This document shows, piece after piece, positions 56,833 to 64,000 of a stretch of 64,000 bases of DNA. Under the pieces are notes generated by a model that worked only from the letters and a program-made list of their open reading frames with translations, did no database searches and was not told the origin of the DNA. This stretch comes from Acidobacteriota bacterium (GTDB taxonomy: Bacteria; Acidobacteriota; Terriglobia; Versatilivoradales; Versatilivoraceae). A program made the translations under genes and the position numbers. How positions within the stretch are numbered: the stretch's first letter is position 1; every line of letters begins with the position of its first letter. The DNA is taken from contig JAJDUG010000041.1 of the NCBI GenBank assembly GCA_022826755.1, positions 1-64,000 on the forward strand, given 5' to 3'.

Positions 56833-58263
56833 TTACGGCTTCTCGATGGCATAGACGTGAGAGCGGGTCATGATGTAGAGGGTGCCGTTGGCAACGACGG
56901 GGGTGCTGTAGACGGTGTTGCCGAAGTTGGTTTCGTGAATGAGTCTTTTCTGGCGACTCGCCTCCAGAATGGTGAGGTCGCCATCCTCGTCTCCCAGCAT
57001 GACCTTGCCGTCGACCACGAAGGGAGAGCCCCAGACAGCCGCCAACATGTCGTGTTCCCAAAGTAATTTTCCGTTCGCGAGATCCAGGGCGTGAAAGAAC
57101 CCGCTGAAATTGGCGGCGTAGAGCAGTCCGTCGCGGATGGCCACCGTCGATATGCTGCGGCGGAAGTCGTGATGCCAGACGGCCCCGGTTTCCGTGATGT
57201 CCCCTGACTGGGTGGCGTCGATGGCCCAAAGGTGTCCCACGCCTTCGCCGTGCTCCGGGTCCTGGCCCACCGCGATGTAGACCATGTCGTTGAAGACGAC
57301 GGGTGTCCCGATCAGGTTGTTGCGGTCCCCTCTGCCGTTCTTCCACTCCGAGCCCTTCGGATTGCAGTCGAACCTCCAGAATTCCTTGCCGGTCTTGGCT
57401 TCGAAGGAATAGAGCCAGCCATCGCCGCCCGCAAAGATGACCTGGGGCCTGCCCGCGATCTCTCCGTAGGCCGGAGAGGACCACTGGCCATGCAGAACCG
57501 CATCCCCGGGGGCCGAGTTTTCCCAGGCCAGCTTGCCGCTGTGACGGTTCACGGCCAGGAAACTGGGAGCTCTCGGTACCGGTATGTTGATATGGCTCTC
57601 ATCGGTGCCGTTGGAGGTGTTGACGAAAATCAGGTCCCCCACCAGCAGCGGTGAGCTGGTGGCCAGGTTGTGCGGGAAGACCCCCAGCTCTTCGATCATG
57701 TCGAAAGTCCACACCACGTCCCCGTCGATGGGGGAGGAGTGCTTCTCGTCCTTGACGGGGCCGTCGTTCTCTCCGTCCAGGAATCCTTCGGTGTCCAGGC
57801 TCACCACCTCCGCCCGGTTGGAGACATAGTAGAGTCGATCCCCCGCCAGCGCCGGCGAGGAGCAGATGCCCTGCTCGGGCCAGTCGTTGACTCTGCCGGC
57901 AGCCAGCTTTTCGTGGGTCATCTGCCAAAGAAATTTCCCGTCCTTCTCCCGAAAGCACATGATGACGCCCCGGTCACCGGTCTGTTGGGGATTGCGCAGC
58001 CGCTGGTTGTTGGTGCCCACGAAGACCTTGCCGCCAAATATCGTGGGGTTTCCATAGGATTGGGAGCCGATTTCGGCAACCCACTTGATGTTCTTGCCGG
58101 TTTTCAGATCCCAATCGGCCGGAACGCCGGTGGCGTCCGAAACCATGTTCCTGTCGGGTCTCCCCCCCCACATGGGCCAGTCTCCTGCCAGTCCGGAGAT
58201 TTTGGCTCCGCCTGCCAGCAAGAGAACCACTGCGGCGACGACCTTCAGCTTTGGCAATGACAT
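56833..58263 (-). CDS. Secreted PQQ-like beta-propeller protein (476 aa)
   Basis: The product has a signal sequence (VVAAVVLLLAGGAKISGLAG) followed by DWPMWGGRPDRN, the characteristic start of secreted PQQ-like propellers, and then repeated blades of the type GDRLYYVSNRAEVVSLD, DGWLYSFEAKTGKEFWRF and LYAANFSGFFHALDLANGKLLWEH. No heme motif or clear PQQ-binding set was identified, so an enzyme activity is not claimed; such proteins are often scaffolds or glycan-associated. The ATG used has a GAGAGGAA site. It lies 38 bases after the larger propeller gene and is co-transcribed with it. Confidence 0.88.
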   Translation of the reverse strand: MSLPKLKVVAAVVLLLAGGAKISGLAGDWPMWGGRPDRNMVSDATGVPADWDLKTGKNIKWVAEIGSQSYGNPTIFGGKVFVGTNNQRLRNPQQTGDRGVIMCFREKDGKFLWQMTHEKLAAGRVNDWPEQGICSSPALAGDRLYYVSNRAEVVSLDTEGFLDGENDGPVKDEKHSSPIDGDVVWTFDMIEELGVFPHNLATSSPLLVGDLIFVNTSNGTDESHINIPVPRAPSFLAVNRHSGKLAWENSAPGDAVLHGQWSSPAYGEIAGRPQVIFAGGDGWLYSFEAKTGKEFWRFDCNPKGSEWKNGRGDRNNLIGTPVVFNDMVYIAVGQDPEHGEGVGHLWAIDATQSGDITETGAVWHHDFRRSISTVAIRDGLLYAANFSGFFHALDLANGKLLWEHDMLAAVWGSPFVVDGKVMLGDEDGDLTILEASRQKRLIHETNFGNTVYSTPVVANGTLYIMTRSHVYAIEKP

Positions 58264-58301
58264 GCGTTCCTCTCCACTCCTCCACCCCGACCCGAGGACC
58301 C

Positions 58302-60530
58302 TCAGCGACCGGCCGGAGTGACGGAGACGTTGTCGTAGTAAATTTCGGCCGCGGAGTACCCGTAGATCCCCGGGCTGCCCTGGCGGTGGACGATCGGGTC
58401 CTCGACCTCGATGGTCCACCCTTCGGGCTCGGCCTCATCGCGTTTCCAGACCTTTCCCCGAATCATTCCCCCGGTTCCCTCCGGAAGAAGCTCGACCCGA
58501 AGCTTCATCCGGTACCACACATCCGGGTCGACCCGGTAGTCGATGGTCTTGGAGAAGTGTCCCAGTTCCGACAGCCAGCTGCGGATCTGCAGCTTCTGTC
58601 GATTGCCCATCAATGACAGGATGTAGCGCTGGGCGATCAGACCCATGTCCGGAAGACGCCGGCGCTGTTCGGTGGCCATCATCTCCGCCTGAATCTCGTA
58701 GCCCGATGTCCTCCAGTCTCCCAGGTAGACCATGGTCCGCCAGGAACGAGGGTTGGCGGACAGCTTCTTCAGAACCTTGTTGCCGTCCAGGGAGGTCACC
58801 ACGAATCGGCCCCGGGCGGAGTTCCAGCCGTGAGCCACCGTTCCCTCCTCCAGCCGTTCAAAGTCCTCCTGAAACGGAATGGCGGGACGGGAGCTGATGC
58901 GAGCCGTTCCCTTCAGGCTGCCGACCCGGGCGACGAGCAAGCCTCCCTGAGGGATATTGCCGTCGCTGAGGGTCAGGCGCCCGTCCGCGGAAACCTTCCC
59001 CTGGATTCCCTCCAGGGACCAGGCGGCTTCGACCGGTTGCTTCCGTCCCCGGGCATCCACCACCCGTGCCACGAAGGTCCTGGAAGCTCCGGCGGAGAGG
59101 ACGACCTCCGCGGGCTCCACCAGCACCCTTCGGGGCGGTCCCTGGAAGGAGTCGGAAGCCTCCGGCTGGGGCCCCCCTCCGCTTGGAGACGTCGAGCTCC
59201 GGTCCTCGAGGCCGATGCAATAGAGCATGTTGCGAGTCCATAGATAAATGCGGCCATTGGCGACCGCAGGCGATCCGTTGATGGATACGGCTGAACCGTC
59301 GGCATTGGCGAACCGCTCCAGGTCCAGCTTTTCGGGAGGTTGGTGGCCGCGCAGTCCCAAAACGTGAAACTGCCCGTCGACATCGGAAACAAAGAGCTTG
59401 CCGTCGGCCACAACCGGGGAGGCTCGCTGCATGACCCCCAGGTTGTACTTCCAGAGCTGTTTCCCGGTATCGGCCTGAAAGGCGACCAGGTTGGCGGAAT
59501 TGTCCACGTGATAGAGGATGTTGTCCGCCAGGGCGGGCGAGGCATAGCCGGCGGTAAACCCGTCCACCTGCCAGACCACCTTGGGCTTGCCGTCCACGAT
59601 GCGGGCGGCGTCCAGGCACACCAGCCGGCCCATGGCCGTGCTGGCGTCGACATTTTCTTCGCCGTGGGAGGCGAAAACCCGGCTTCCCTGAACCACGACC
59701 GAGGAGTTGATCCCTCTCTTGCTGAAGGGGAAACCCCAGACCCTCTCGCCGGTCGCCAGGCTGAGCCCGTAAATCGAGCCGTCGGCGTTGCCGCCGATCA
59801 GCAGGTCCTGGCCGTTGATCCGGCGGACCACCGGGACCGTGTAGGTCGTGTCCTTGGGGGCCTTGCCGGGAGTCGTCAACCAGACCGTTTCCCCGGTGCG
59901 TTTGTCCAGGGCATAGAAACGGTCCCGTGGAATGGCCGTGGAGCCCCATCCGGCGTTCAGGAAATTGACGAACAGCAGGTTCCCGTGCAGGGTTGGAGTC
60001 ACTGTCCGGCCACCGTAGCCGGAAATTCTCCCGACTTCCTCCTTGAATGACCTGGACCAGACCACCTTGCCGTTGCGGTCGAGGCAGTGCACCATCCCCT
60101 CGATTCCGTTGGCGTAGATATGGCCGGTGGCGGGATCGGCCGCCAGGCTGGCCCAACCGACCCGATGGTGCGGGATATCGGTCAGAAACACCTTGTAGCG
60201 AAATTCCCAGCGCAGATCTCCCGTCTCGGCGTCGAAGCAGGAAATCTGCTCCTGCCAGTGGGCCGGCGTTTCCGGCTCCGCCAGTGTGATGACACAGACT
60301 CTTCCGTCCACCACAATCGGCGTCGATCGACCGCCGATGGGCCGCTTCCATCTCAGGTTTTCTCCCTCCGGGGACCAGGTCGACGGAAGCCCGGTTTCCG
60401 CCGAAACGCCGTCCGCGTCAGGGCCTCGCCACATGGGCCAGTCGGCGGCTCCGGCCGGAACCGGCAGACACGCCAGGCTGCAAACGGAGAGAGCAAGCCA
60501 TGCCTTCAGAAACTGTTTTGCCATCCGCAT
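58302..60530 (-). CDS. Secreted PQQ-like beta-propeller protein with C-terminal sugar-binding-like domain (742 aa)
   Basis: After a signal sequence (AWLALSVCSLACLPVPAGA) the mature part starts DWPMWRGPDADGVS, paralogous to the DWPMWGGRPDRN of the next gene. Blades run to about residue 440 (GSIYGLSLATGERVWGFPF, ADNILYHVDNSANLVAFQAD). A Ser/Pro/Gly linker follows, then an Ig-like segment (VEPAEVVLSAGASRTFVARV) and a C-terminal LamG-like region (IPFQEDFERLEEGTVAHGW ... IYYDNVSVTPAGR). The ATG at 60530 has a GGGAGA site; an alternative TTG one codon upstream is less likely. Likely envelope function; ligand unknown. Confidence 0.88.
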   Translation of the reverse strand: MRMAKQFLKAWLALSVCSLACLPVPAGAADWPMWRGPDADGVSAETGLPSTWSPEGENLRWKRPIGGRSTPIVVDGRVCVITLAEPETPAHWQEQISCFDAETGDLRWEFRYKVFLTDIPHHRVGWASLAADPATGHIYANGIEGMVHCLDRNGKVVWSRSFKEEVGRISGYGGRTVTPTLHGNLLFVNFLNAGWGSTAIPRDRFYALDKRTGETVWLTTPGKAPKDTTYTVPVVRRINGQDLLIGGNADGSIYGLSLATGERVWGFPFSKRGINSSVVVQGSRVFASHGEENVDASTAMGRLVCLDAARIVDGKPKVVWQVDGFTAGYASPALADNILYHVDNSANLVAFQADTGKQLWKYNLGVMQRASPVVADGKLFVSDVDGQFHVLGLRGHQPPEKLDLERFANADGSAVSINGSPAVANGRIYLWTRNMLYCIGLEDRSSTSPSGGGPQPEASDSFQGPPRRVLVEPAEVVLSAGASRTFVARVVDARGRKQPVEAAWSLEGIQGKVSADGRLTLSDGNIPQGGLLVARVGSLKGTARISSRPAIPFQEDFERLEEGTVAHGWNSARGRFVVTSLDGNKVLKKLSANPRSWRTMVYLGDWRTSGYEIQAEMMATEQRRRLPDMGLIAQRYILSLMGNRQKLQIRSWLSELGHFSKTIDYRVDPDVWYRMKLRVELLPEGTGGMIRGKVWKRDEAEPEGWTIEVEDPIVHRQGSPGIYGYSAAEIYYDNVSVTPAGR

Positions 60531-60563
60531 CAAATAGGATCTCCCTTCCCCTTCCTGGTGAAT

Positions 60564-60588
60564 AGTGGCCAGTGGTCAGTGGATAGTG
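60564..60588. repeat. Heptamer repeat AGTGGNN, three and a half copies
   Basis: AGTGGCC, AGTGGTC, AGTGGAT and AGTG follow one another in the gap between the propeller gene and the D-aminoacylase-like gene. The 60531-60747 gap shows no gene. Confidence 0.6.
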
Positions 60589-60726
60589 ATTGAATCGACA
60601 CGCTTGGCATCTTGTCGATCTTGGCGTAGCCCTCAAATTCGCCCTCTATGATCCCCACGGCAGAGCGGCGGCTAACCGAAGACCGGTCGAGTTTACCACC
60701 GTTCCATTCATTATCAGGTTGAAGGA

Positions 60727-60756
60727 CAAAAAAACAACCAGGGCCCTTTACGGGCC
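60727..60756 (-). terminator. Short hairpin with T-run at the end of the D-aminoacylase-like gene
   Basis: On the minus strand GGCCC, loop GTAAA (which contains the stop codon TAA), GGGCC, then eight bases later a run of seven T. The stem is short (5 bp). Confidence 0.4.
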
Positions 60757-62445
60757 GGGCTTCCCCGGTCCGTCCAGAATCTTTCCCGGCCTGGCGTCAC
60801 GAAGCTGTCCGCCGTCGATCACCAGGGTGCCGTTGACAACCACGTGCTCGATACCCTCCGCAAGTCGGCGTGGCTCCAGGAAGGTGGCCGGGCCGGCCAC
60901 CCGCTCGGCGTCGAAAATGGTGATGTCGGCCTTCATGCCCACCCGGAGGAGGCCCCGGTCTTGAAGCCCCAACTTGGCCGCGTTCATTCCCGTCATCTTG
61001 TGAATGGCCTCTTCCAGATCCAGCACCCCTTCCTCCCGCACGTACTTCCCCAGGACTCGGGCAAAGGCGCCATATCCATGAGGCCGGGGCACTTCTCCAT
61101 CCGATGGATCGCTGGCGGCGGTCGCGCCGCCGGAGCCGATGGAGACCCAGGACGCCTGCAGGGCGTGACGCAGGTCCTCCTCGCTCATGAGAGAGTAAAG
61201 GACTGCAACCGGACCCTGGGTTTCCCGCAACAGGTCAAGGAGAGTGTCTCCGGGGGTCTGATCGAGTTCGGTCGCGATTGCCTGAATGCTCTTCCCGGCC
61301 CAGGCCTGAAATTTCGGGGACTCCGCCTGCAGCAGCACCACTCCTTCCCAGCCGCCGGCCGCCAGGAAAGCATTGAACTGCCCGCGCCGTTTCCGGCGCA
61401 GCTCTCTCAGGATGCGGGCTCGAAGGTCGCTTCGGGAGAGCCTTTCCAGCAGTGCCTCCCGTCCGCCCTCGGTCGCCCAGGCGGGCAACAAGTCCTCCAG
61501 GTTCGCCCGGGCGCTTCGATAGGGAGACAGGCTGGCGGTCAGGGCCAGTCCCGATTCCCTGCCCTTTTCGATGGAACCGAACACTTCTTGCAGTTGCCCG
61601 GGTCCACGGTGTCCGGCAACCCTCAACCCCAGAATGTCCAGGGGAATTTGAGCTTGCTCCGCGAGCTCGATGGCTTCCTTGACCGAATTGTCGATGCCGG
61701 CGCGGGGATCGATCCCGACGGAGTAGACCCCGCCGTGAGGCTTCATCTGCAGCGCCAACTCGGCGAGTTGCTCTCTGCTCAGAACCCCGGGGGGAGACAA
61801 CTGCGGTGAGTCGGCGAGCCCCAGGGCGCCCTCCAGCATGGCCTGCCCGACCCGCTGCTTCATCGCGGCAAACTCGGGCTGGGTGGGTTCCCGCGCTTCT
61901 TCGCCCAGGACCGAGCGCACGACATCTCCGGCCTGGGCGTATGCGGCCACGTTGACGGTGATGTCCCCTTGCCGCAGCCGATGGAAGGTATGTTCCCAGG
62001 GGGGCCGATTGGCCGAGCCTTTCCGGGGCCCGGGTTCCGGCCCGGCGGCCGTCTGCAGGAACGGGCTCGGATGTCCGCCTCCCAGGACCTCGGTGGTCAC
62101 TCCCTGACGCACCTTGCCGGGGGAGTCGGGGCGGAGCAGGTCATCGGGATTGGAACGACTGAGTATATCGATAAATCCGGGGGTGACCCACAGTCCACGC
62201 GCGTCGATTACTCGGCGCGCCTTCTGTTCCCGGTTTTCCAGCGCCCCCACGTGCACGATCTCTTCCCCGCGAACGGCCAGGTCTCCCGGAAACCACAGGG
62301 AGCCCGAGCCGTCGACGAGTTTGCCGCCGGCGACGATCAGGTCAAATTCGTATTGGGGAGATTCCCGGCAGGCAAGCAGGGTGCAGCCAAGAGCCAGCGC
62401 CAGCGTGGCCCGCTTCAGCGAAAGCTGCGGCATTTTGACAGTCAT
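60748..62445 (-). CDS. D-aminoacylase-family lipoprotein without catalytic residues
   Basis: The 565-residue product has a lipoprotein-type signal (LALALGCTLLAC, Cys26 the likely acylated residue) and overall homology to N-acyl-D-amino-acid deacylases: FDLIVAGGKLVDGSGSLWF, VTPGFID, QGVTTEVLGG, LEDLLPAWATEGGREALLERL, RPHGYGAFARVLGKYVREEG and MNAAKLGLQDRGLLRVGMKAD are all conserved. Yet the metal and catalytic positions are changed: HSHSD is LSRSN (95-99), the NCG cysteine is Gly124, the two later histidines are Gly244 and Gly273, and the SDG aspartate is Gly (IGSGG). I infer a non-enzymatic relative. Starts at GTG 62451 or ATG 62433 are possible. No ribosome site is clear. Confidence 0.85.
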   Translation of the reverse strand: MTVKMPQLSLKRATLALALGCTLLACRESPQYEFDLIVAGGKLVDGSGSLWFPGDLAVRGEEIVHVGALENREQKARRVIDARGLWVTPGFIDILSRSNPDDLLRPDSPGKVRQGVTTEVLGGGHPSPFLQTAAGPEPGPRKGSANRPPWEHTFHRLRQGDITVNVAAYAQAGDVVRSVLGEEAREPTQPEFAAMKQRVGQAMLEGALGLADSPQLSPPGVLSREQLAELALQMKPHGGVYSVGIDPRAGIDNSVKEAIELAEQAQIPLDILGLRVAGHRGPGQLQEVFGSIEKGRESGLALTASLSPYRSARANLEDLLPAWATEGGREALLERLSRSDLRARILRELRRKRRGQFNAFLAAGGWEGVVLLQAESPKFQAWAGKSIQAIATELDQTPGDTLLDLLRETQGPVAVLYSLMSEEDLRHALQASWVSIGSGGATAASDPSDGEVPRPHGYGAFARVLGKYVREEGVLDLEEAIHKMTGMNAAKLGLQDRGLLRVGMKADITIFDAERVAGPATFLEPRRLAEGIEHVVVNGTLVIDGGQLRDARPGKILDGPGKPGP

Positions 62446-62474
62446 TTTCACGAGCGGGGTTGAGTCGGGTCAGC

Positions 62475-62831
62475 TCAAGACTGAAGGAAGCGGCCGGCCA
62501 CCTCGTCCATCTTTTCCCGCGTCAATCTCCAATGGGAATCGTGCCAGAGGACCTTGGAGCCGGAAATGAGCAGAAGTTGCGGGGATTCATGCTGCACCCC
62601 CAATTGCTCTGCGATCAGATTGGAGAGCGGGCGCTCCTCGATCACTCGAACCAGGGCGCAGGTGCAGGGCCGGTTGGCTCCGCCCTGTTGTTCGAATTCA
62701 GAGAAGGCGGAGTAGACCTCGGCGCTGATGGGACACTGGCTGCTGTGTTTCAGCAGGAACACCGGTTCCCGATCGGAACCCGCCAGCAGTGCCTGCACAT
62801 CCTCCGGAGTCTTGAGCTGAGTAAAGGACAT
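62475..62831 (-). CDS. ytxJ: YtxJ-type monothiol bacilliredoxin
   Basis: The 118-residue product has a thioredoxin-like fold with a single redox Cys33 in VFLLKHSSQCPISAEVY, the YtxJ hallmark (KHS..CPIS). In Firmicutes this family reduces bacillithiol mixed disulfides. The N-terminal half ALLAGSDREP and the C-terminal QLLLISGSKVLWHDSHW are also family-like. The ATG has a GGGAG site; the frame is open far upstream through the TPR gene, but that part is antisense-frame noise. It begins 38 bases after the TPR-like gene and is probably in one transcript with it. Confidence 0.87.
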   Translation of the reverse strand: MSFTQLKTPEDVQALLAGSDREPVFLLKHSSQCPISAEVYSAFSEFEQQGGANRPCTCALVRVIEERPLSNLIAEQLGVQHESPQLLLISGSKVLWHDSHWRLTREKMDEVAGRFLQS

Positions 62832-62868
62832 GGACGCGAACACTCCCTTCAGAGGAACTTGAATGCGA

Positions 62869-63912
62869 TCACTCCGAGCCGGGCTCGGCGGAGTCCCCGG
62901 TGACCGGGGCCGGTTTGCCGTTGCCGCCTGCCAGATCCGCCCGGGCCTGCACCAGCAGGTCTTGCAGGCCATCCAGAGAGTTCTGGTGGGTAACTCGGTA
63001 AAGAGACTCCAGGTTGCGGCGGGAAATCTCCCGATAGCCGCCTTCCAGAAGGGAAGCTCGGGCAAAGGCATCGATGGCCTGCGGGTATCGCTTCAACCGG
63101 GTGGATACCACTCCCAGTTGGAAATGAACGAATTGTGAGCGCGGCTCCTCATTCAGCGACTTGGTGAGATATCCGTATGCCCTGGCCAGGTGGAGTGTGC
63201 CCAGCCTGGAGCTCGCGGCGGTTGCGGTTCCCGTGTCCTTTGGCTGGGCCGCGTCCGGTTCGGGGGGAGCCGGGTCGGGCGCACTCTCCCGCGGAGGGGA
63301 TGTTTCCTCCGAGGCCTGCCGCTCCATCTCATATTTGACCAGGTAGGCGTGGCCCAACCCGGCCAGGCTTTGCGCCATGTATTGGCGGTACTCGGCCTCC
63401 CACTGCTGCTGGTCGGTGTTGGCGGGCCGGACGATCTTTTGCAGCCTGCCCAAGGCCCGGGTGGCCAATTGAATGGAACGGTCGGGATCTCCCTTGTCGG
63501 AGTGCGCCAGGGCCATCAGCGCCAGAATCGGAATGTTGTCGGGAGAATGTCGCAGCGTCTCCTGTCCGTGCTCGAACATTTTCTCGGGTTGATTCAGACT
63601 CCGGTAGTCCAGGGTCGCCATGTGGTGAACCTGGCCCAGGTAGTTGGATTCGGGATATTTCTGAACGAATGCCTCGATCAGCGGGGTGCGTTGGGCAGGC
63701 TCGCCGGATTGCTTCAACTGGAGAAAATCCTCCCGTTCCCCCGGGTCTTGCGCCAATTTCTCGACAGGCTCCGGCACGTCATAGATCCTGAGCTTGCCGG
63801 TTTCGGAAGACGGTGGAGCCTGAGCCGGGAGAGGGGCCGCCCCCACGTCGTGACGCTCCGGCAGGCAAATTCCCGCCAGCAACAAGACAATGGAGAGCGA
63901 CCGCAAATTCAT
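62869..63912 (-). CDS. Secreted TPR-like repeat protein (paralogue of the gene at 36551)
   Basis: The 347-residue product has a signal sequence (SIVLLLAGICLP), helical repeats such as FEHGQETLRHSPDNIPILALMALAHSDKG and RAYGYLTKSLNEEPRSQFVHFQLG, and a Pro/Glu/Ala-rich insert about 205-235. Its C-terminus RRNLESLYRVTHQNSLDGLQDLL matches the end of the 36551-37633 protein, which marks a small paralogous family. It leads directly into ytxJ. A GTG three codons upstream is an alternative start. The plus-strand flank to the window end (63922-64000) shows nothing. Confidence 0.84.
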   Translation of the reverse strand: MNLRSLSIVLLLAGICLPERHDVGAAPLPAQAPPSSETGKLRIYDVPEPVEKLAQDPGEREDFLQLKQSGEPAQRTPLIEAFVQKYPESNYLGQVHHMATLDYRSLNQPEKMFEHGQETLRHSPDNIPILALMALAHSDKGDPDRSIQLATRALGRLQKIVRPANTDQQQWEAEYRQYMAQSLAGLGHAYLVKYEMERQASEETSPPRESAPDPAPPEPDAAQPKDTGTATAASSRLGTLHLARAYGYLTKSLNEEPRSQFVHFQLGVVSTRLKRYPQAIDAFARASLLEGGYREISRRNLESLYRVTHQNSLDGLQDLLVQARADLAGGNGKPAPVTGDSAEPGSE

Positions 63913-64000
63913 GGCTGTCACGAATGCACCTACCCTGACCCATTACCGCCAGAATAGCAAAAATGGAAATAGCAGGGCATCCTTTTCTGACAAGCCGAGC

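Follow-up and report, generated by a model that had tools for sequence, protein, structure and literature searches.

A D-aminoacylase-like lipoprotein without metal ligands is maintained across a genus of Acidobacteriota and is probably a selected pseudoenzyme

Pseudoenzymes in general are a known kind of protein (reviewed, for example, in PMC10211241). Among the amidohydrolases they are represented in animals by the CRMPs, binding proteins whose metal site has been lost; these are cytosolic and belong to the dihydropyrimidinase subfamily. The closest described relatives of the protein analyzed here are the D-aminoacylases of solved structure (1m7j and 9g5m). The catalytic roles of their residues are those that we take to be established, and PDB entries include mutants at the catalytic columns: 1rjq is D366A by its title, and 1v4y carries Ala in the H220 column. 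No report of a pseudoenzyme in the D-aminoacylase clade was found in the literature searched, most subscription journals being outside its reach. The protein described below appears to be a new instance within this clade. It shares the superfamily fold with CRMP/dihydropyrimidinase-related structures (5uqc, 2vm8, and 4b90; Foldseek E about 1e-16), but the loss in its genus is independent of theirs.

The DNA analyzed (the window) is a stretch of 64,000 nucleotides on contig C29 of an Acidobacteriota genome of 4.6 Mb that is 100% complete. The public records of its near relatives are metagenome assemblies of Acidobacteriota, one of them named Candidatus Versatilivorator vitaminiformans (class Terriglobia). 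The gene, its predicted parts and its neighbors are listed in Table 1. An earlier sequence-only reading of this DNA had described an intact frame of 565 codons with a lipoprotein signal, and both are present: the frame is unbroken, and a signal peptide, modeled by AlphaFold as a helix at residues 8-25, ends in a lipobox whose Cys26 is the same in all six genus members. The protein is therefore a lipoprotein by its signal peptide and lipobox cysteine, and is probably lipidated at Cys26. In Pfam it matches PF07969 (Amidohydro_3) with 68.6 bits against a cut-off of 29.7, although the score is carried by the C-terminal stretch only. A phmmer search against solved structures returned D-aminoacylases as the best matches (1.9e-49 to 3e-49; 1m7j, 3e-49). 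Behind these came a deacylase with an amidohydrolase annotation, then PpOngB, which is a carbohydrate deacetylase, and N-acyl-D-glutamate deacylase.

Table 1. Positions in the window of the D-aminoacylase-like gene, its predicted parts, its altered motifs and its neighbors.
Feature	Position	Strand	Evidence or remark
TPR-like protein, upstream neighbor	62869..63921	minus	Homologue beside intact orthologue in G007, G010, G011
Monothiol bacilliredoxin, BrxC/YtxJ family, upstream neighbor	62475..62831	minus	Pfam PF11009, 5.4e-31; order kept in genus
CDS, D-aminoacylase-like lipoprotein, 565 aa plus stop	60748..62445	minus	Unbroken ORF; four congener orthologues
Signal peptide and lipobox LLAC (residues 1-26; LLAC at 23-26; Cys26, Arg at +2)	62368..62445	minus	Sequence
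Composite beta domain, N-terminal half (residues 33-93)	62167..62349	minus	Strands in model; ω 0.137
TIM barrel, major part (residues 94-309)	61519..62166	minus	Model; ω 0.30-0.375
Former HxH motif, now L95-S96-R97 (H-S-R/G in congeners; H-S-H in sister genera)	62155..62163	minus	Alignments
Former ligand site, G123 (Glu in intact E-type relatives) and G124 (Cys96 column of D-aminoacylase)	62074..62079	minus	
Residues 244-248: H244G, R246D, E248R	61702..61716	minus	1v4y/1rjp alignments mark H220 column
Residues 273-275: H273G, K275R (Gly and Arg in 6/6 genus members)	61621..61629	minus	
Lid subdomain (residues 310-416), inserted between barrel strands	61198..61518	minus	ω 0.263 (congeners other than G001); absent in G001
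Final barrel segment (residues 417-465), with D439G, H454R, R456H, T460A, P462A	61051..61197	minus	ω 0.54
D439G codon	61129-61131	minus	
Composite beta domain, C-terminal half (residues 466-565)	60751..61050	minus	ω 0.137; among best-kept regions
PQQ/BamB-like beta-propeller protein, downstream neighbor	58302..60533	minus	Pfam PF13360, 3e-32; order kept in genus

The AlphaFold model (pLDDT 83, pTM 0.84) consists of an amidohydrolase TIM barrel, a composite beta domain and a lid, and in Foldseek it matches 9g5m and 1m7j with E about 1e-39 (TMt 0.87 to 9g5m and 0.83 to 1m7j). The protein is thus predicted to keep the D-aminoacylase fold, and shares with the solved enzymes the domain order, the lid insertion and the C-terminal beta domain. 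The low-confidence stretches of the model (residues 130-146, 277-283, and 446-450) lie in loops following former ligand positions, close to the old active site; the model of an intact orthologue (G009; pLDDT 92 overall) is confident in those three loops.

Every residue of the metal and catalytic site is replaced in the window protein (H95L, H97R, E123G, H244G, H273G, and D439G). Alignment to the solved D-aminoacylases is gapless around each motif, in keeping with the earlier description of conserved flanks, and places G244, G273, and G439 at H220, H250, and D366, respectively, as had been claimed for the two histidines and the Asp of SDG. Relative to these enzymes the window protein therefore has the fold and an added lipoprotein signal, but lacks the HxH motif, the Cys/Glu ligand, both His residues and the catalytic Asp. 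The substrate-pocket residues are also replaced (K275R, Y307S, and R456H). Two details of the sequence-only reading need correction. The change of HSHSD to LSRSN is real in that L95-S-R97 stands in place of HxH; however, H95L is restricted to the window's own species, the other five genus members having His. Cys96 of D-aminoacylase does align with G124, as had been read from an NCG motif, but Cys is absent at 124 from the nearest intact relatives, which instead carry an invariant Glu at 123 (motif LGEx), one residue ahead of the Cys96 column. The ancestral change here is therefore Glu to Gly and not Cys to Gly, and Glu123 probably serves as a metal ligand in these E-type relatives.

The E-type (LGEG) amidohydrolases of the same class (L011, L013, L014, L016, and others) keep the H-x-H/E/H/H/D set and the 12-site signature HHEHREHKYDHR, whereas the window protein does not. 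L011, L013, and L014 are its direct orthologues in sister genera and share the lipobox. All the intact E-type relatives examined carry this signature unchanged, except for one subgroup that deviates only at the two HxH sites, and the window genus reads HRGGDRGRSGRH or close to that. A set of 28 E-type relatives is invariant at 75 sites, of which 18 are lost genus-wide; the four metal sites among the 75 all belong to these 18 (hypergeometric p = 0.0025); the pattern of motif loss is not due to chance.

Full-length orthologues are present in four congeners (82, 80, 78, and 78% identical); a fifth congener has a shortened copy, and a sixth has a fragment at the end of a contig. H97, E123, H244, H273, and D439 are lost in every genus copy spanning these sites (the window and five others), so that five of the six losses are common to all other members covering them. 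The replacing residues are G, R or A at position 123 and G, A or E at 244; Gly occupies 273 and 439 in all six. Pocket positions have changed across the genus as well, both in the major part of the barrel (R246 to D/N, E248 to R/A, K275 to R, W282 to R/P, Y307 to S/A/T) and in its final segment (H454 to R/E, R456 to H, T460 to A, P462 to A). The copy in G001 carries an in-frame deletion of 321 bp that removes the entire 107-residue lid (residues 310-416; L015:1501-2838 / L039:6001-7338), with short sequence similarity at the deletion junction. The genomes are mostly metagenome assemblies, and a misalignment, a frameshifted assembly or a chimera might mimic motif loss. However, the same replacements and conserved gene order occur in five full-length copies and one shortened copy from independent assemblies, one of which (G001) is a single 5.1-Mb contig, and the flanking residues align without gaps. 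Since independent congeners show the same replacements, this explanation is already refuted, and we give it almost no weight.

In two sister genera, orthologues with 46-49% identity retain the complete motif set, and in three of four sister genomes the intact orthologue adjoins a homologue of the same TPR gene (Table 1). The loss is therefore placed on the stem of the window genus; with intact homologues only in sister genera at this distance, the gene is not a recent pseudogene, the alternative that the sequence-only reading had set against its own proposal. In a maximum-likelihood tree the genus clade (support 98) is sister to the clade of intact orthologues (joint support 100), and its stem is eight times longer (0.76 against 0.09 substitutions per site). 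The active site thus changed in a burst on the genus stem, with slower change afterwards. Saturation of dS makes the ω value of the stem branch itself (0.019 at length 17) uninformative. Within the genus, gene trees of the altered gene and of the TPR and PQQ genes conflict (L053, L058, L064, L037, L038), which suggests recombination or rapid radiation. One sister-genus orthologue with intact motifs, L012 (G011:C265:5539-7191), contains a single in-frame TGA after ...ADKRMW, either an assembly error or a real nonsense change.

Codon models were used to assess selection on the altered gene. Within the genus ω is 0.27, and ω = 1 is rejected (2dlnL 313-339). It is likewise rejected on the window species' own branch (ω 0.32, p = 6e-7) and on the branch of the lid-less G001 copy (ω 0.26, p = 7e-14). 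Genus lineages contain no stops, against about 6-8 expected per lineage in a neutral simulation at 0.2-0.25 substitutions per site. The sequence-only reading was thus right that this is not a decaying gene. The view that it decays, with its frame kept open by chance or by residual constraint, can point to the long stem branch, to the G001 deletion, and to an ω some four times as high as in the intact orthologues (0.063, a value from near-saturated dS and therefore soft in absolute terms). However, the ω of the TPR neighbor is raised by a similar factor, from 0.051 in intact lineages to 0.24 in the genus. By this comparison most of the rise in the altered gene is lineage-wide; BrxC within the genus has ω 0.32. 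Together with the missing stops, the three rejections of neutrality and an ω of 0.137 in the beta domain, this makes decay very improbable for the genus as a whole, while the loss of the lid in G001 could be early decay of that one copy. An antisense ORF (60844-61809, plus strand) was considered as the source of constraint and rejected, as all four full-length congeners carry one or two stops in it.

The constraint is unevenly distributed along the protein. Within the genus, regional ω is highest in the barrel (0.35), intermediate in the lid (0.26), and lowest in the beta domain (0.14). In the intact family, saturated dS left the bootstraps of regional ω ratios too noisy, and counts of variable sites were used instead. 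Sites variable only in the genus and only in the intact family number 89 and 42 in the barrel, and 43 and 57 elsewhere (Fisher p = 1.7e-4). A barrel-specific relaxation is therefore present on top of the lineage-wide rise, while the beta domain and the lid stay constrained, the lid being lost in a single species. Sites lost genus-wide are variable within the genus more often than average (58% against 44%), which indicates that the emptied pocket itself is without strong new constraint. New constraint on the pocket as a whole is not supported by these figures, yet G273, G439, H456, A460, and A462 are fixed.

Activity might nonetheless persist, either metal-free or through a metal site that has shifted to other residues. 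Purifying selection extends across the barrel, H456 is new in a pocket motif and invariant in the genus, and the pairs R246D/E248R and H454R/R456H resemble swapped charges. A replacement site was sought among all genus-invariant H/C/D/E residues absent from relatives and among all His and Cys residues, and no plausible set was found; the displaced His, Cys or Asp residues that could have overturned the sequence-only reading did not appear. Only two His residues (H456 and H482) are genus-invariant, and the only invariant Cys is that of the lipobox, which makes an alternative metal site unlikely. In addition, the substrate-pocket residues K275, Y307, and R456 are replaced, the barrel is more relaxed than the remainder of the protein, and one congener has no lid. 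Continued catalysis is accordingly judged improbable.

With the metal site lost, the predicted fold retained and selection acting on the gene, and with the losses common to orthologues, the protein has the marks of a pseudoenzyme. We consider the best explanation, at a probability of roughly 0.82, to be a selected pseudoenzyme, that is, an anchored amidohydrolase scaffold without a metal site that is retained for binding or scaffolding; the earlier suggestion that this was plausible has thus gained in strength. Because every metal-binding residue is gone, a binding or structural protein is more probable than an enzyme, and the window protein would bind no catalytic metal and hydrolyze no amide. 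The genus stem is where the metal ligands were replaced together with the catalytic Asp and a large part of the substrate pocket, while the predicted fold, composite beta domain, lid and lipobox were retained, and since then the altered protein has been under purifying selection in the genus. The beta domain, lid and reshaped barrel may serve for binding, of a ligand held in the emptied pocket or of a partner protein, or the protein may be used as an anchored scaffold; a binding, sensing or scaffold role is thus envisaged.

Candidate partners would be the co-directional TPR or beta-propeller proteins. Five co-directional genes at 56833-63921 (TPR, BrxC, the altered gene and two PQQ/BamB-like beta-propellers) stand in the same order throughout the genus and are likely an operon.

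A more specific proposal, which we hold only tentatively, is that the genus turned a D-aminoacylase-type enzyme into an envelope-anchored binder in one burst, in which constraint moved away from the barrel and onto the beta domain and lid. If true, this would be the first enzyme-to-binder case in the D-aminoacylase clade, and one for which sister genera supply intact positional orthologues to compare it with. The intact sister genera and the emptied site form a clean before-and-after pair for testing which constraints survive the passage from enzyme to binding protein, and the lid-less G001 copy is a natural truncation experiment. Annotation pipelines would probably call the protein an amidohydrolase or D-acylase, its PF07969 score being above the cut-off, and would probably be wrong genus-wide.

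Two other groups of relatives differ at the ligand positions. The 'MLGQS' subgroup, found class-wide (L017, L018, L021, L022, L024, L026, L027, L029, L033, L069, and L078), likewise lacks HxH (LxQ) but retains the Glu, both His and the Asp, and in L017, L018, L021, L024, L069, and L078 also the pocket; its members may therefore be mono-metal enzymes. A paralogue in the window's own genome (L004:1501-3081; G000:C6:54657-56225) keeps HxH, the second His and the Asp, but its Cys ligand is replaced by Asp (LDG) and its first His by Glu (VNEPR). All five congeners read (86-88% identity) show the same altered ligands, and the paralogue may therefore carry a variant metal site.
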